From an uncultured Caryophanales bacterium (lineage in GTDB: Bacteria > Bacillota_I > Bacilli_A > RF39 > UBA660): 39,153 nucleotides of DNA. This document shows positions 1 through 30,247 of the stretch, piece by piece. The position numbers were made by a program, and so were the translations under genes. Below the pieces are notes generated by a model. It was not told where the DNA came from. It did not search any database and saw only the letters and a list, made by a program, of their open reading frames with translations. The stretch is taken from positions 1 through 39,153 of the forward strand of contig CANSPQ010000011.1 in assembly GCA_947648915.1 (NCBI GenBank), in the 5' to 3' direction. How positions within the stretch are numbered: the stretch's first letter is position 1; each line of letters starts with the position of its first letter.

Positions 1-59
1 TGACATTATTTATATATTAATATTAACTACTTACACACTTTTCTTGACATACCCTCTTA

Positions 60-163
60 GCGGATTTTTAAGCGTTCTTAAATAAATATACAATACAGAG
101 ACAACGCTTAACATACAGAAGTTATCGTATCTCTTTTTTTATGATATGAAGTTTCCCTCATCT
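60..163 (-). ncRNA. Partial fourth copy of the putative type I antitoxin sRNA family
   Basis: Minus strand reads GTATACAGATGAGGGAAACTTCAT...GAGATACGATAACTTC...GTTAAGCGTTGTCTC, homologous to the sRNAs at 6772, 7132 and 29978. ATGAGG-GAAA-CTTCAT hairpin at 146-161. The 3' end and partner gene are uncertain because of the window edge. Confidence 0.55.
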
Positions 164-6736: not shown

Positions 6737-6765
6737 TTGCTTTCATAAGATTGTTATGATACAAT
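6737..6765 (+). promoter_or_regulatory. Promoter of sRNA copy 1
   Basis: TTGCTT-17 bp-TACAAT. Confidence 0.7.
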
Positions 6766-6771
6766 GTATAC

Positions 6772-6893
6772 AGATGAAGGAAACTTCATAAAATAAAAAA
6801 GGAATATATTTGATTTTGGAGAGTCAAATGCATTCCTCATAGGGTTTGGCATCTAACGAATCACTGATGTGATAAGCAGATGCCTTTTGTTTA
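6772..6893 (+). ncRNA. Putative type I antitoxin sRNA, copy 1
   Basis: Promoter immediately upstream; 5' hairpin ATGAAG-GAAA-CTTCAT (6774-6789); second hairpin GGAATATATTTGA...TCAAATGCATTCC; terminator GGCATCT...AGATGCC-TTTT (6848-6888). Near-identical to copy 2. Confidence 0.75.
6848..6888. terminator. Apparently bidirectional terminator shared by sRNA copy 1 (+) and toxin mRNA 1 (-)
   Basis: GGCATCTaacgaATCACtgaTGTGATaagcAGATGCCTTTT. The minus strand reads through the same inverted repeat directly after the toxin stop codon; the minus-strand T-run is weak. Confidence 0.65.
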
Positions 6894-6968
6894 TTTAAAC
6901 AATAAAATGAATATTGTTAAAAATAACAGGGTGATTATAAAGTACAAACATTTTTCATTTTGTTTCAT
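6891..6968 (-). CDS. 25-aa hydrophobic peptide, putative type I toxin, copy 1 (MKQNEKCLYFIITLLFLTIFILLFK)
   Basis: SD GAAAGG upstream of ATG on the minus strand; one TM segment; N-terminal 17 residues identical to copy 2; convergent with the sRNA. Confidence 0.72.
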   Translation of the reverse strand: MKQNEKCLYFIITLLFLTIFILLFK

Positions 6969-7038
6969 AAACACCACCACCTTTCAACAACTGAAAGAGA
7001 AAAGCATCTGACATAAATCAAATATATCCTGTGTATAA

Positions 7039-7067
7039 TTGTACCACTCGTATATTAAATTGTAAAT
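7039..7067 (-). promoter_or_regulatory. Promoter of toxin mRNA copy 1
   Basis: Minus strand TTTACA (7062-7067)-17 bp-TACAAT (7039-7044). Confidence 0.65.
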
Positions 7068-7096: not shown

Positions 7097-7125
7097 TTGA
7101 CAGGATTTCCATCTTATGTTATTAT
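7097..7125 (+). promoter_or_regulatory. Promoter of sRNA copy 2
   Basis: TTGACA-17 bp-TATTAT; exactly 360 bp downstream of the copy 1 promoter. Confidence 0.75.
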
Positions 7126-7131
7126 GTATAC

Positions 7132-7256
7132 AGATGAAGGAAACTTCATAAAATAAAAAAGGAATATATTTGATTGTTGCAAGTCAAATGCATTTCCTTA
7201 TTTGGAACTGGCATCTAACGAATCACTGATGTGATAAGCAGATGCCTTTTATTATT
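7132..7256 (+). ncRNA. Putative type I antitoxin sRNA, copy 2
   Basis: Same hairpin order as copy 1; the first ~48 nt (GTATACAGATGAAGGAAACTTCATAAAATAAAAAAGGAATATATTTGATT) are identical; terminator GGCATCT (7210)...AGATGCCTTTT. Confidence 0.75.
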
Positions 7257-7341
7257 TAAAGAAAATAATTGCTAGTAAAGCAAATATTACTAGAAATAAT
7301 AGCGTAATTATGAAATACAAACATTTTTCATTTTGTTTCAT
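7252..7341 (-). CDS. 29-aa hydrophobic peptide, putative type I toxin, copy 2 (MKQNEKCLYFIITLLFLVIFALLAIIFFK)
   Basis: SD GAAAGG; one TM segment; paralogue of copy 1; stop codon abuts the shared terminator. Confidence 0.72.
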   Translation of the reverse strand: MKQNEKCLYFIITLLFLVIFALLAIIFFK

Positions 7342-7410: not shown

Positions 7411-7439
7411 ATTGTATTATTCGTATATAAAAATGTAAA
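7411..7439 (-). promoter_or_regulatory. Promoter of toxin mRNA copy 2
   Basis: Minus strand TTTACA (7434-7439)-17 bp-TACAAT (7411-7416). Confidence 0.65.
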
Positions 7440-7552: not shown

Positions 7553-10159
7553 ATGGAAAAAATAATATTAGTAGATGGAAATAACCTATTATTTCGTAGT
7601 TATTATGCAACAGCGTACAATGGAAACATGATGTCAAATAGTAAAGGATTTCCAACCAATGCCCTTTTTGGATTTGCGAACATGATGAATAAAATTGTTT
7701 TAGAGGAAAAACCAACCTATATGATTGTAGCGTTTGATAAAGGAAAAACATTTCGTCATGCAGAATATGGGGGTTATAAAGGTGGACGTAGTGAAACGCC
7801 TGATGAATTAAAAATGCAATTTCCAAAAGCCAAAGAGATGTTAACTTATATGGGAATTCGTTATTATGAAATTGATAATTATGAAGCAGATGATATTTTA
7901 GGAACCTTTGCTGCATACTGCGATAAAGATCCTAATTTTGTAGGAACAATTATTAGTAGTGACAAAGATTTATTACAACTTATTAGTGATGATGTCGATA
8001 TGAAATTGTTAAAACAGAAGGACTATATCCGTTATAATAAGAAGACATTCCATGAAGCTTATGGGATTGATCCAATTCATGTCATTGATTTAAAGGCTTT
8101 GATGGGAGATCCTTCTGATAATATCCCAGGTGTTCGTGGTGTTGGTGAAAAGACAGCCCTAAAAATGTTGCAAGATTATGGTACCTTAGATGGGGTTTAT
8201 GAACATTTGGATGCATTTACCCCTAAAATGAGAGAAAAATTAGAAACCAGTAAAGAAGATGCGTACATGAGTTATCATCTTGCGACCATTGTACGTGATG
8301 TTCCCATGGAAATTAGTATGGAAGACGTCAAATGTGGAGAAAAGGATCATGAACAATTAAATCATTTATATGAAGAACTTGAATTTTATTCTTTCTTAAG
8401 AAAAGAAGAAAAAGAAATGCCATCTACCATTCATGCCAATCATAATTTTAAAACCATTCACAATATGGATGAAGTGAATCTGAATAAACCAAGTGCCGGT
8501 TATTTAGAAATACTGGGTGTCAATTACCACACTGCACCTATTTTGGGACTTGCAATCTATAATGATGAAGATTCCTTCTATATTCCATTTGAGGTCCTAA
8601 AACAAAATCCAGATAAAATATCAAAATGGATACATTATACTTATGATTATAAAAAAATCTATACTGCACTCAAATGGCATCAGATTGATCTTGAAAATAT
8701 AGAATTTGATACCATGATTGCTGCTTACTTATTAGACTATAATATCAAAGATGATATCGCTTATTTAGCAAATCAATTTGATTATGAGATTCCTTTTTAT
8801 GAGAATGTATTTAAAAAATTAAAAACAAAGGAAATTTACGAAGAAGAAAATCCAGAGATTACAGCTTACCATGCGATTTTAAAGGCACAATTTATTTATG
8901 AAACAAGAGATTTATTCGAACAAAAATTGAAAGAAGAAGATTTATCGAATTTATTTCATGAAATTGAATTACCACTTGCACGTGTACTTGCAAATATGGA
9001 ATATAATGGAGTTCATATCGACCAAGAAGCACTTAAGAAGATGGGTGAAGAAATTCAAATTAAAATTGAACTGGTAGAGCAAGATATCTATAATGATGCA
9101 GGATGCAAGTTTAATATATCATCTCCAAAACAACTTGGTGAAATCTTATTTGAAAAATTGAATCTACCACATGGTAAAAAGAATAAAAGTGGATATTCTA
9201 CATCTGTTGATATTTTAAATAAGATTAAAAACGAACATCCAATTGTCGATAAAATTATCGAATACCGTATGTTAACAAAGTTATATACAACCTATGTAGA
9301 AGGACTGATGAATACCATTTTGTCTGATGGAAAAATCCATACCATTTTTACCCAGACTTTAACGAGGACAGGTCGTTTGTCTTCGATTGAACCAAATTTA
9401 CAGAATATTCCAATTCGTTATGAGTATGGAAGACTGATTCGTAAGGCTTTTGTTCCAAGTAAAGATTCCATTATTATAAGTGGAGATTATTCTCAAATTG
9501 AATTACGTATTTTAGCCCATATGGCTCATGTGGATTCTTTGATTGATACATTTAAAAGAGAAGTGGATGTTCATACCAAAACAGCTGCCGATATTTTTAA
9601 AGTAGAAGAAAATCAGGTTACGAAAGAAATGCGTCGTATTGCTAAGGCTGTAAATTTTGGAATTATTTATGGTATTAGTAGTTATGGACTATCTGAAAAT
9701 GTGGGTATTACGCCTTATGAAGCAAAGCAATTTATTGATAACTATTTTGAGAGTTACCCAGGAATTAAAGAGTATATGGATGAAACAATTAAAAATGCGT
9801 ATCAAGATGGATCTGTTCGTACTTTAATGCACCGTAAGCGCACCATCCCAGAGTTGAATAATAAGAACCGTTTGATTCGTTCCAGTGGAGAAAGAATTGC
9901 TTTAAATACACCAATTCAAGGAACGAGTGCCGATATCATCAAAAAAGCAATGGTGGATATTGATAGACGTTTTGAGGAAGAAAAAATCCAATCTAAGATG
10001 ATTTTACAGGTGCATGATGAACTTGTGTTTGATACGTTAGAAGAAGAAAAAGATCAAGTCATTGCCATTGTAACAGAGTGTATGGAACATGTGTTAGATT
10101 TAGAGGTACCATTAAAAGTAGACATCGAATATGGAAATGATTGGTATCAAGCCAAATAA
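7553..10159 (+). CDS. polA: DNA polymerase I
   Basis: 5'-3' exonuclease N-terminus (LVDGNNLLFRSYYA, SSDKDLLQL, GDPSDNIPGVRGVGEKTA) and family A polymerase motifs (SGDYSQIELRILAH, RRIAKAVNFGIIYG, LQVHDELVF). ATG at 7553 with SD GAGGT preferred over 7493. Confidence 0.97.
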   Translation: MEKIILVDGNNLLFRSYYATAYNGNMMSNSKGFPTNALFGFANMMNKIVLEEKPTYMIVAFDKGKTFRHAEYGGYKGGRSETPDELKMQFPKAKEMLTYMGIRYYEIDNYEADDILGTFAAYCDKDPNFVGTIISSDKDLLQLISDDVDMKLLKQKDYIRYNKKTFHEAYGIDPIHVIDLKALMGDPSDNIPGVRGVGEKTALKMLQDYGTLDGVYEHLDAFTPKMREKLETSKEDAYMSYHLATIVRDVPMEISMEDVKCGEKDHEQLNHLYEELEFYSFLRKEEKEMPSTIHANHNFKTIHNMDEVNLNKPSAGYLEILGVNYHTAPILGLAIYNDEDSFYIPFEVLKQNPDKISKWIHYTYDYKKIYTALKWHQIDLENIEFDTMIAAYLLDYNIKDDIAYLANQFDYEIPFYENVFKKLKTKEIYEEENPEITAYHAILKAQFIYETRDLFEQKLKEEDLSNLFHEIELPLARVLANMEYNGVHIDQEALKKMGEEIQIKIELVEQDIYNDAGCKFNISSPKQLGEILFEKLNLPHGKKNKSGYSTSVDILNKIKNEHPIVDKIIEYRMLTKLYTTYVEGLMNTILSDGKIHTIFTQTLTRTGRLSSIEPNLQNIPIRYEYGRLIRKAFVPSKDSIIISGDYSQIELRILAHMAHVDSLIDTFKREVDVHTKTAADIFKVEENQVTKEMRRIAKAVNFGIIYGISSYGLSENVGITPYEAKQFIDNYFESYPGIKEYMDETIKNAYQDGSVRTLMHRKRTIPELNNKNRLIRSSGERIALNTPIQGTSADIIKKAMVDIDRRFEEEKIQSKMILQVHDELVFDTLEEEKDQVIAIVTECMEHVLDLEVPLKVDIEYGNDWYQAK

Positions 10160-10188
10160 TGTTTGACAGATAAAAATAGAGTATGATA
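10154..10188. repeat. 35-bp exact direct repeat, left copy (promoter-bearing)
   Basis: AAATAATGTTTGACAGATAAAAATAGAGTATGATA, identical to 12063-12097. Confidence 0.95.
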
Positions 10189-10276
10189 GAATATACTCCA
10201 TTCACTATAATTATAAAGATTATTTGACATTATTTAAATTAAGTTGCTAGTTGGGAATAGAAAAGAGGTATTGTCT

Positions 10277-11877: not shown

Positions 11878-12068
11878 TGAATAATAAATTTTTAAAAAGT
11901 ATGATGTTACATATAAAGTATCCATATACGGCTTTAGTAATCTCCATTATGTGGATTGGTATGGCTATTATTATATCTAGACAACCAGAAAACCTTGAAA
12001 CTTTGGTAATCGCAACTTCTGTTTGTACTTTAATTGTTGCATTGATTGGATTTAAGTCACCAAAATAA
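11877..12068 (+). CDS. 63-aa small membrane protein, apparent paralogue of the protein at 10277
   Basis: Overlaps the UbiB-like stop; TALVISIMWIGMAIIISRQPENLETLVIATSVCTLIVALIGFKSPK aligns without gaps to the C-terminal 39 aa of the 10277 protein. Confidence 0.65.
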   Translation: MNNKFLKSMMLHIKYPYTALVISIMWIGMAIIISRQPENLETLVIATSVCTLIVALIGFKSPK

Positions 12069-12097
12069 TGTTTGACAGATAAAAATAGAGTATGATA
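12063..12097. repeat. 35-bp exact direct repeat, right copy (promoter of the T-box operon)
   Basis: Identical to 10154-10188; contains TTGACA ~18 bp upstream of TAAAAT. Confidence 0.95.
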
Positions 12098-12109
12098 AAA
12101 TGAATTTGT

Positions 12110-29942: not shown

Positions 29943-29971
29943 TTGCACTTCTCATCTATTTATGCTATTAT
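29943..29971 (+). promoter_or_regulatory. Promoter of sRNA copy 3
   Basis: TTGCAC-17 bp-TATTAT. Confidence 0.7.
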
Positions 29972-29977
29972 GTATAT

Positions 29978-30107
29978 AGATGAGAGAAATCTCATACAAT
30001 AAAAGAGATACATCTTACTTTGTTCTGTTAGGTGTGTCTCTACTAATTATGGCTATTGCTAGCCAAATGTGTTGATAACACCATCTAGTTGCTAGGTGTT
30101 ATTTTTT
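29978..30107 (+). ncRNA. Putative type I antitoxin sRNA, copy 3 (diverged)
   Basis: 5' hairpin ATGAGA-GAAA-TCTCAT (29980-29995) covaries with copies 1/2; hairpin GAGATACATCTT...TTAGGTGTGTCTC; terminator AACACC...GGTGTTATTTTTT. Confidence 0.7.
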
Positions 30108-30161
30108 GTCCTGATTTTTTAGTAAGTATATTATAATTAACACAAGCGCTAATTCTAACAT
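30099..30161 (-). CDS. 20-aa hydrophobic peptide, putative type I toxin, copy 3 (MLELALVLIIIYLLKNQDKK)
   Basis: Strong SD GGAAAGG 5 nt upstream of ATG; hydrophobic core with charged C-terminus; convergent with sRNA copy 3; stop at the edge of the shared terminator. Confidence 0.6.
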   Translation of the reverse strand: MLELALVLIIIYLLKNQDKK

Positions 30162-30247
30162 AATTGCCTTTCCACATCATAAGACATCACCCCACTTTCA
30201 TGAGGACACCTAACAATAAAATATATCTCTACTAAAAAAATACGATA

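Follow-up and report, generated by a model that had tools for sequence, protein, structure and literature searches.

The par locus of pAD1 combines convergent promoters, direct repeats and a shared terminator with a toxin that carries a PXXXG motif, and its toxin RNA bears a 5' upstream helix (PMC7472228). In the Bacillus subtilis pairs txpA/RatA, bsrG/SR4 and bsrE/SR5, a convergent cis RNA antitoxin overlaps the 3' end of the toxin mRNA (PMC6562991). Stabilising stem-loops at the 5' end of a transcript have been described on mRNA, as in papA of Escherichia coli (PMC3997798).

Here we analysed a 39,153-nucleotide contig of an uncultured Caryophanales bacterium (GCA_947648915.1, CANSPQ010000011.1, positions 1 to 39,153 of the forward strand; hereafter the window), in which a 16-nt hairpin, hp1, recurs. 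hp1 forms the 5' hairpin of an RNA that very probably is a type I antitoxin; its family is widespread and apparently has not been described before. Its loci share with par and par-like systems (Fst with RNA I and RNA II) convergent promoters, a short single-TM peptide and a small putative antisense antitoxin, together with repeats near both 5' ends as a possible second interaction site and structure around the toxin Shine-Dalgarno (SD) sequence. With the Bacillus pairs they share a small hydrophobic peptide and a predicted convergent 3' overlap, and the source genome encodes RNase III.

Results

A hairpin-blind search recovers a large family

The original prediction described four copies of a GAAA-capped hairpin, and we found all four exactly as described:

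6774-6789, plus strand: hp1 of copy 1, ATGAAG GAAA CTTCAT
7134-7149, plus strand: hp1 of copy 2, ATGAAG GAAA CTTCAT
29980-29995, plus strand: hp1 of copy 3, ATGAGA GAAA TCTCAT, supported by covariation, with the predicted start at A29978 or G29979
146-161, minus strand: hp1 of copy 4, ATGAGG GAAA CTTCAT, with one G-U pair; the contig edge cuts off its toxin side

Six hp1-like matches with up to two mismatches were present in the window, compared with 1.34 +/- 1.10 in shuffled sequence, and no shuffle reached six. Taken alone, the four copies are weak evidence of covariation, as they differ at two pairs and perhaps through one event. Homologues were therefore gathered with a pattern that fixes the flanks only, ATGTATANAG-N16-ANNATAAAA, and leaves the 16 hairpin bases free. 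In GTDB contigs this pattern gave at least 119 matches; among the matches listed, 62 formed all six pairs and one formed five, sharply split from the remainder, which formed the one to four pairs expected by chance. The 62 came from records named uncultured Bacilli, Tenericutes, Bacillales and similar gut MAGs, and nearly all had a -35 TTG at the expected distance. The same pattern matched IMG/VR viral contigs 69 times, never with six of six pairs, a result that served as the null and led us to reject a phage-borne module.

Within the source genome the spacing between the flanks was exactly 16 nt in 17 of 17 matches although 10-26 nt was permitted. Allowing up to one mismatch, the element occurs 21 times in this genome and 23 times in a sister genome. 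At least one exact pattern match was found in 52 of 291 sampled genomes, from the same large family of uncultured Bacilli, and in 70 of 385 genomes of a second draw, a few of these matches being due to chance.

hp1 covaries as a transcribed RNA structure

Among members gathered without regard to the hairpin, all six pairs form in 103 of 117 genus-by-sequence combinations from 46 genera. A set of 59 distinct hairpins was compiled without a small number of degenerate or register-shifted sequences; in it, 97.7% of pair cells form, and sliding one partner against the other lowers pairing to 30-65%. Two-sided changes occupy 47 cells of this set, compared with 14.3 +/- 3.4 in shuffles, and none of 500 shuffles reached 47. 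A tree-based covariation test along the lines of R-scape (a G-test with APC, in which substitutions are placed anew on the tree; 134 members) gave E ~0 for pair 6-11, E ~0.01 for pair 5-12 and E ~0.24 for pair 4-13; the outer pairs vary too little for this test. Across all members the outer three pairs (ATG/CAT; positions 29980-29982 with 29993-29995 in the window) are nearly invariant and the inner three vary freely, pairs 4 and 6 appearing in all four Watson-Crick types (A-U, G-C, U-A and C-G). The stem can be weak, the least stable member folding at -0.8 kcal/mol.

As an inverted repeat of 6+6 bases that sits at the start site and keeps a fixed spacing, hp1 could also be a DNA operator, bound at +1 by a repressor of the antitoxin promoter. 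Against this speak the free use of all four pair types at pairs 4 and 6, the variability of the centre and register shifts in divergent members. Single-sided departures from pairing were also overwhelmingly G-U (23 versus 3 A-C among distinct sequences, p = 9e-5); these two mismatches are equivalent in a DNA palindrome, so their asymmetry places selection on the transcribed RNA strand and makes an operator very improbable. The same asymmetry led us to reject hp1 as a terminator on the opposite, toxin strand, where its G-U pairs would be A-C.

Another candidate was a tiny leader ORF starting with the ATG at the 5' end of hp1. The 5' arm does begin with ATG or GTG, and in copy 3 this ATG opens a 31-codon frame (MREISYNKRDTSYFVLLGVSLLIMAIASQMC, 29980-30075, plus strand). 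These frames lack a Shine-Dalgarno sequence, the commonest reading stops after five codons, and the A-run behind the hairpin is 4 to 7 long, so that the frame is not kept across copies. We therefore rejected a coding origin of the covariation and give a leader ORF almost no credence.

The tree-based covariation, the two-sided changes and the G-U excess strongly support the claim of the original prediction that hp1 is a selected RNA structure, and by this comparative evidence it is almost certainly real. Stem changes lacking compensation, which would have counted against that claim, are rare among homologues: most members that break the canonical register still fold, several as a shifted hairpin. 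The loop, which had been called invariant, is not. GAAA occurs in only 60 of 103 cases, the others being AAAA, GGAA, TTTT, TTAT, AATT and more, and a GNRA loop is present in 66 of 103 rather than in all. Stem and loop size are conserved; loop sequence is variable. Short hairpins of this kind can be proved simply by combining a blind pattern with the strand test of G-U versus A-C.

hp1 is predicted to open a small RNA with its own promoter and terminator

All copies have the order -10 hexamer, GTATAYAG, hp1. Promoter spacing puts the predicted start at the A or G just before the hairpin, so that hp1 would lie 0-2 nt from the 5' end; behind it come an A-tract, a second, palindromic hairpin, R, and an intrinsic terminator. 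The elements of this RNA, the putative antitoxin, are as follows:

29943-29971, plus strand: promoter of antitoxin copy 3, TTGCAC, 17 nt, TATTAT, then GTATATAG up to hp1; conserved in all copies
29996-30004, plus strand: A-tract of copy 3, ACAATAAAA, partly required by the search pattern; its minus strand is the U-tract of a terminator-like element of the toxin mRNA
30005-30041, plus strand: R hairpin of antitoxin copy 3, with a homologue near the 5' end of the toxin mRNA
30075-30107, plus strand: intrinsic terminator of antitoxin copy 3, ATAACACC...GGTGTTAT plus T-run
6737-6765, plus strand: promoter of antitoxin copy 1, TTGCTT, 17 nt, TACAAT
6800-6836, plus strand: R hairpin of antitoxin copy 1, GGAATATATTTGA...TCAAATGCATTCC
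6848-6889, plus strand: terminator of antitoxin copy 1, GGCATCT...AGATGCC plus T-run, below the consensus-scan threshold
7097-7125, plus strand: promoter of antitoxin copy 2, TTGACA, 17 nt, TATTAT (11 of 12)

Rfam covariance models run on the window and seven loci gave nothing relevant to this RNA. Elsewhere in the window lie two T-box leaders (RF00230; 12107-12285 and 34716-34919). A 39-nt promoter-like stretch (TTGACA, TATGATA) is present at 10154-10192 and again, 97% identical and immediately upstream of a T-box leader, at 12063-12101.

A convergent ORF encodes a putative membrane-peptide toxin

A short ORF with a Shine-Dalgarno sequence and one hydrophobic segment faces the RNA in 99 of 126 testable copies, starting mostly at +160 to +240 and encoding 20-33 residues in the clean set. 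Its promoter was identified for 83 of 92. The peptides fall into subfamilies beginning MSKKDFL, MTKREIS, MELVVAF and MKKRVFILKVL, with a few more. The toxin-side features in the window are:

30099-30161, minus strand: putative toxin ORF of copy 3, MLELALVLIIIYLLKNQDKK, weak SD GGAAAGG, MELxx subfamily
30204-30233, minus strand: R element in the leader of toxin mRNA copy 3, whose toxin promoter is weak (TATCGT)
6891-6968, minus strand: putative toxin ORF of copy 1, MKQNEKCLYFIITLLFLTIFILLFK, SD AGGTGG
7038-7066, minus strand: toxin promoter of copy 1, TTTACA, 17 nt, TACAAT, clear
7252-7341, minus strand: putative toxin ORF of copy 2, MKQNEKCLYFIITLLFLVIFALLAIIFFK
7411-7439, minus strand: toxin promoter of copy 2, TTTACA, 17 nt, TACAAT, clear

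Related ORFs differ preferentially at third positions and by synonymous changes (pN/pS ~0.19), indicating that the peptides are real. Searches of Pfam, NCBIfam and PHROGs gave no meaningful match for them, with none above cut-off in Pfam or NCBIfam, and the TxpA/BsrG/SprG holin-like toxin models of Pfam and NCBIfam gave none at E up to 10.

If the RNA were a trans-acting regulatory sRNA, the facing ORFs would be incidental. The filter did detect no ORF in 27 of 126 copies, and some toxins look decayed: in one copy (L011, G000:C41:3302) the antitoxin hairpin is intact and the facing toxin ORF looks frame-shifted near its start, as if the antitoxin were kept while the toxin decays. Set against this are the ORFs of the other 99 copies with their placement mostly at +160 to +240, SD and hydrophobic segment, the low pN/pS and the similarity of R between partners described below, and we regard a trans-acting role as improbable.

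Copy 4 (window 1-60, minus strand) departs from its relative L042 after AATCCGCTAAGA and enters GGGTATGTCAAGAAAAGTGTGTAAG, a stretch similar to an insertion-sequence end. Downstream of R in L014, L001, L012 and L015, a palindromic element occupies the expected toxin site (TGATATGAACCCCATTTCTTGGACATAAGAAATGGGGTTCATATCA in L014, degenerate in the others). It also occurs at two contig ends and is probably a small mobile element inserting in these loci.

Element R is shared by the two RNAs

The predicted start of the toxin mRNA coincides with, or slightly precedes, a further copy of R that has the orientation of the antitoxin R. Cognate R elements are more alike than non-cognate ones (same-sense similarity 12.4 versus 8.2 +/- 0.2; 0 of 5000 permutations), suggesting that both RNAs derive from comparable promoters, with hp1 and the A-tract inserted before R in the antitoxin. 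On the toxin strand, R and the complement of the A-tract look like an intrinsic terminator, the hairpin folding at -7.4 compared with -3.4 kcal/mol when shuffled; the U-tract part is not independent evidence for a terminator because the search pattern partly required it. A toxin mRNA ending there would cover the antitoxin from R up to the antitoxin 3' terminus and leave hp1 as the antitoxin's private segment.

The antitoxin R also pairs with the cognate toxin leader more strongly than with shuffled leaders (-19.9 versus -15.2 kcal/mol; stronger in 38 of 45), so that complementarity of RNA antitoxin to toxin mRNA, which defines type I systems, is present both by position in the 3' overlap and in the R duplex. 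This antisense complementarity is only slightly higher for cognate than for non-cognate leaders. In another comparison of duplex energies, the cognate value was -22.2 compared with -19.8, and the cognate was the best in 4 of 90. We rejected fully specific cognate pairing as judged by duplex energy; discrimination between paralogues is modest, probably owing to the relatedness of R between copies. Pairing of the toxin SD is somewhat higher in the native leader than in shuffled ones (0.69 versus 0.58).

Naming this RNA an antitoxin, as the original prediction did, is well supported by the convergent toxin ORFs, the shared R element and the R-to-leader complementarity, and from these features it is very probably what the RNA is. 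R and the 3' overlap would be its contacts with the toxin mRNA, and pairing there would block translation or trigger RNase III.

A probable role for hp1 at the antitoxin 5' end

The first 20 nt fold below -2 kcal/mol in 83 of 83 antitoxins and in 7 of 83 toxin mRNAs, with means of -5.6 versus -0.4 kcal/mol. Between hp1 and the toxin leader or initiation region we detected no excess of cognate pairing, and hp1 as a toxin recognition arm was accordingly rejected. For B. subtilis RppH, two unpaired nucleotides at the 5' end are the minimum, three or more are preferred, and the second nucleotide has to be G (PMC3997798); the source genome encodes two RNase J proteins. Together with a 5' hairpin found on the antitoxin only, this makes protection of the 5' end the likeliest role. 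hp1 would keep the antitoxin 5' end from RppH and RNase J and so maintain an antitoxin excess. The '5' stabilising cap' of the original prediction is plausible on this showing, for a hairpin predicted 0-2 nt from the start, absent from the toxin mRNA and lacking cognate pairing.

Two observations count against this role. At the predicted 5' terminus, A-G followed by hp1, as many as two nucleotides are unpaired and the second is G, a configuration that RppH could still accept, and end protection by itself does not explain the near-invariance of the outer ATG/CAT pairs, which leaves room for a sequence-specific contact. In that case hp1, though a genuine RNA element of the 5' end, might mainly serve as a sequence-specific binding site or an initial-transcription element, the inner stem acting as a spacer. 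Free variation of the inner three pairs between fixed outer ones is compatible with that, as is the prevalence of GAAA, the commonest loop. The freedom of loop and inner stem to vary is harder to reconcile with it, and members with a shifted hairpin lose the outer sequence but retain the hairpin; we consider this reading possible though rather unlikely. Decay protection of the antitoxin 5' end is the role that we favour, by a modest degree, from the position and distribution of the hairpin.

Discussion

Our reading of these loci as a whole, which we hold to be reasonably probable, is that hp1 is a decay-protecting, 5'-terminal stem-loop of the antisense antitoxin in a multicopy type I toxin-antitoxin family. 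The features compared place it outside the Fst family; in its workings it appears to resemble par and the Bacillus systems. A PXXXG motif with a charged C-terminal tail was not found, and 89 of 90 putative toxins lack P...G. Whereas par sequesters the extreme 5' end of its toxin RNA I, the 5' structure here is on the antitoxin, and the first 20 nt are unstructured in 76 of 83 toxin mRNAs. The shared repeat is a same-sense palindromic element and not a plain direct repeat. In par one bidirectional terminator is shared; here an intrinsic terminator was found for the antitoxin and another is predicted on the toxin strand at R and the U-tract, a site partly selected by the search pattern, where the toxin mRNA appears to end. 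Unlike txpA/RatA, bsrG/SR4 and bsrE/SR5, these loci encode shorter peptides (20-33 residues) and have an extra R at the toxin 5' end and an antitoxin-specific 5' hairpin.

The ompA mRNA of E. coli also carries a 5' stabilising stem-loop. Like the E. coli stem-loops, which block single-strand-dependent 5' decay, hp1 is short and lies at the extreme 5' end; it differs in belonging to an antitoxin sRNA and in being conserved by covariation over at least 46 genera, its stabilising role being a prediction.

Identity with a known RNA or protein family was rejected, as none matched in Rfam, Pfam, NCBIfam or PHROGs, and we found no description of this family in the open-access papers searched. We tentatively raise the possibility, which we rate below the preceding conclusions, that uncultured gut Bacilli harbour a large type I superfamily not described before, whose single antitoxin chassis (promoter, 5' cap and A-tract) serves several membrane peptides that look unrelated, and in which the usual asymmetry of stability is reversed, the protective 5' end being on the antitoxin. 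If true, an antitoxin-borne protective 5' end argues against post-segregational killing as the main role of these loci. About twenty paralogous loci in a 1.3 Mb uncultured gut genome, unseen by Rfam and Pfam, are a large natural set for studying how antitoxin specificity diverges, and a covarying 5' cap present only on the antitoxin makes the textbook rule of a stable toxin mRNA and an unstable antitoxin directly testable.
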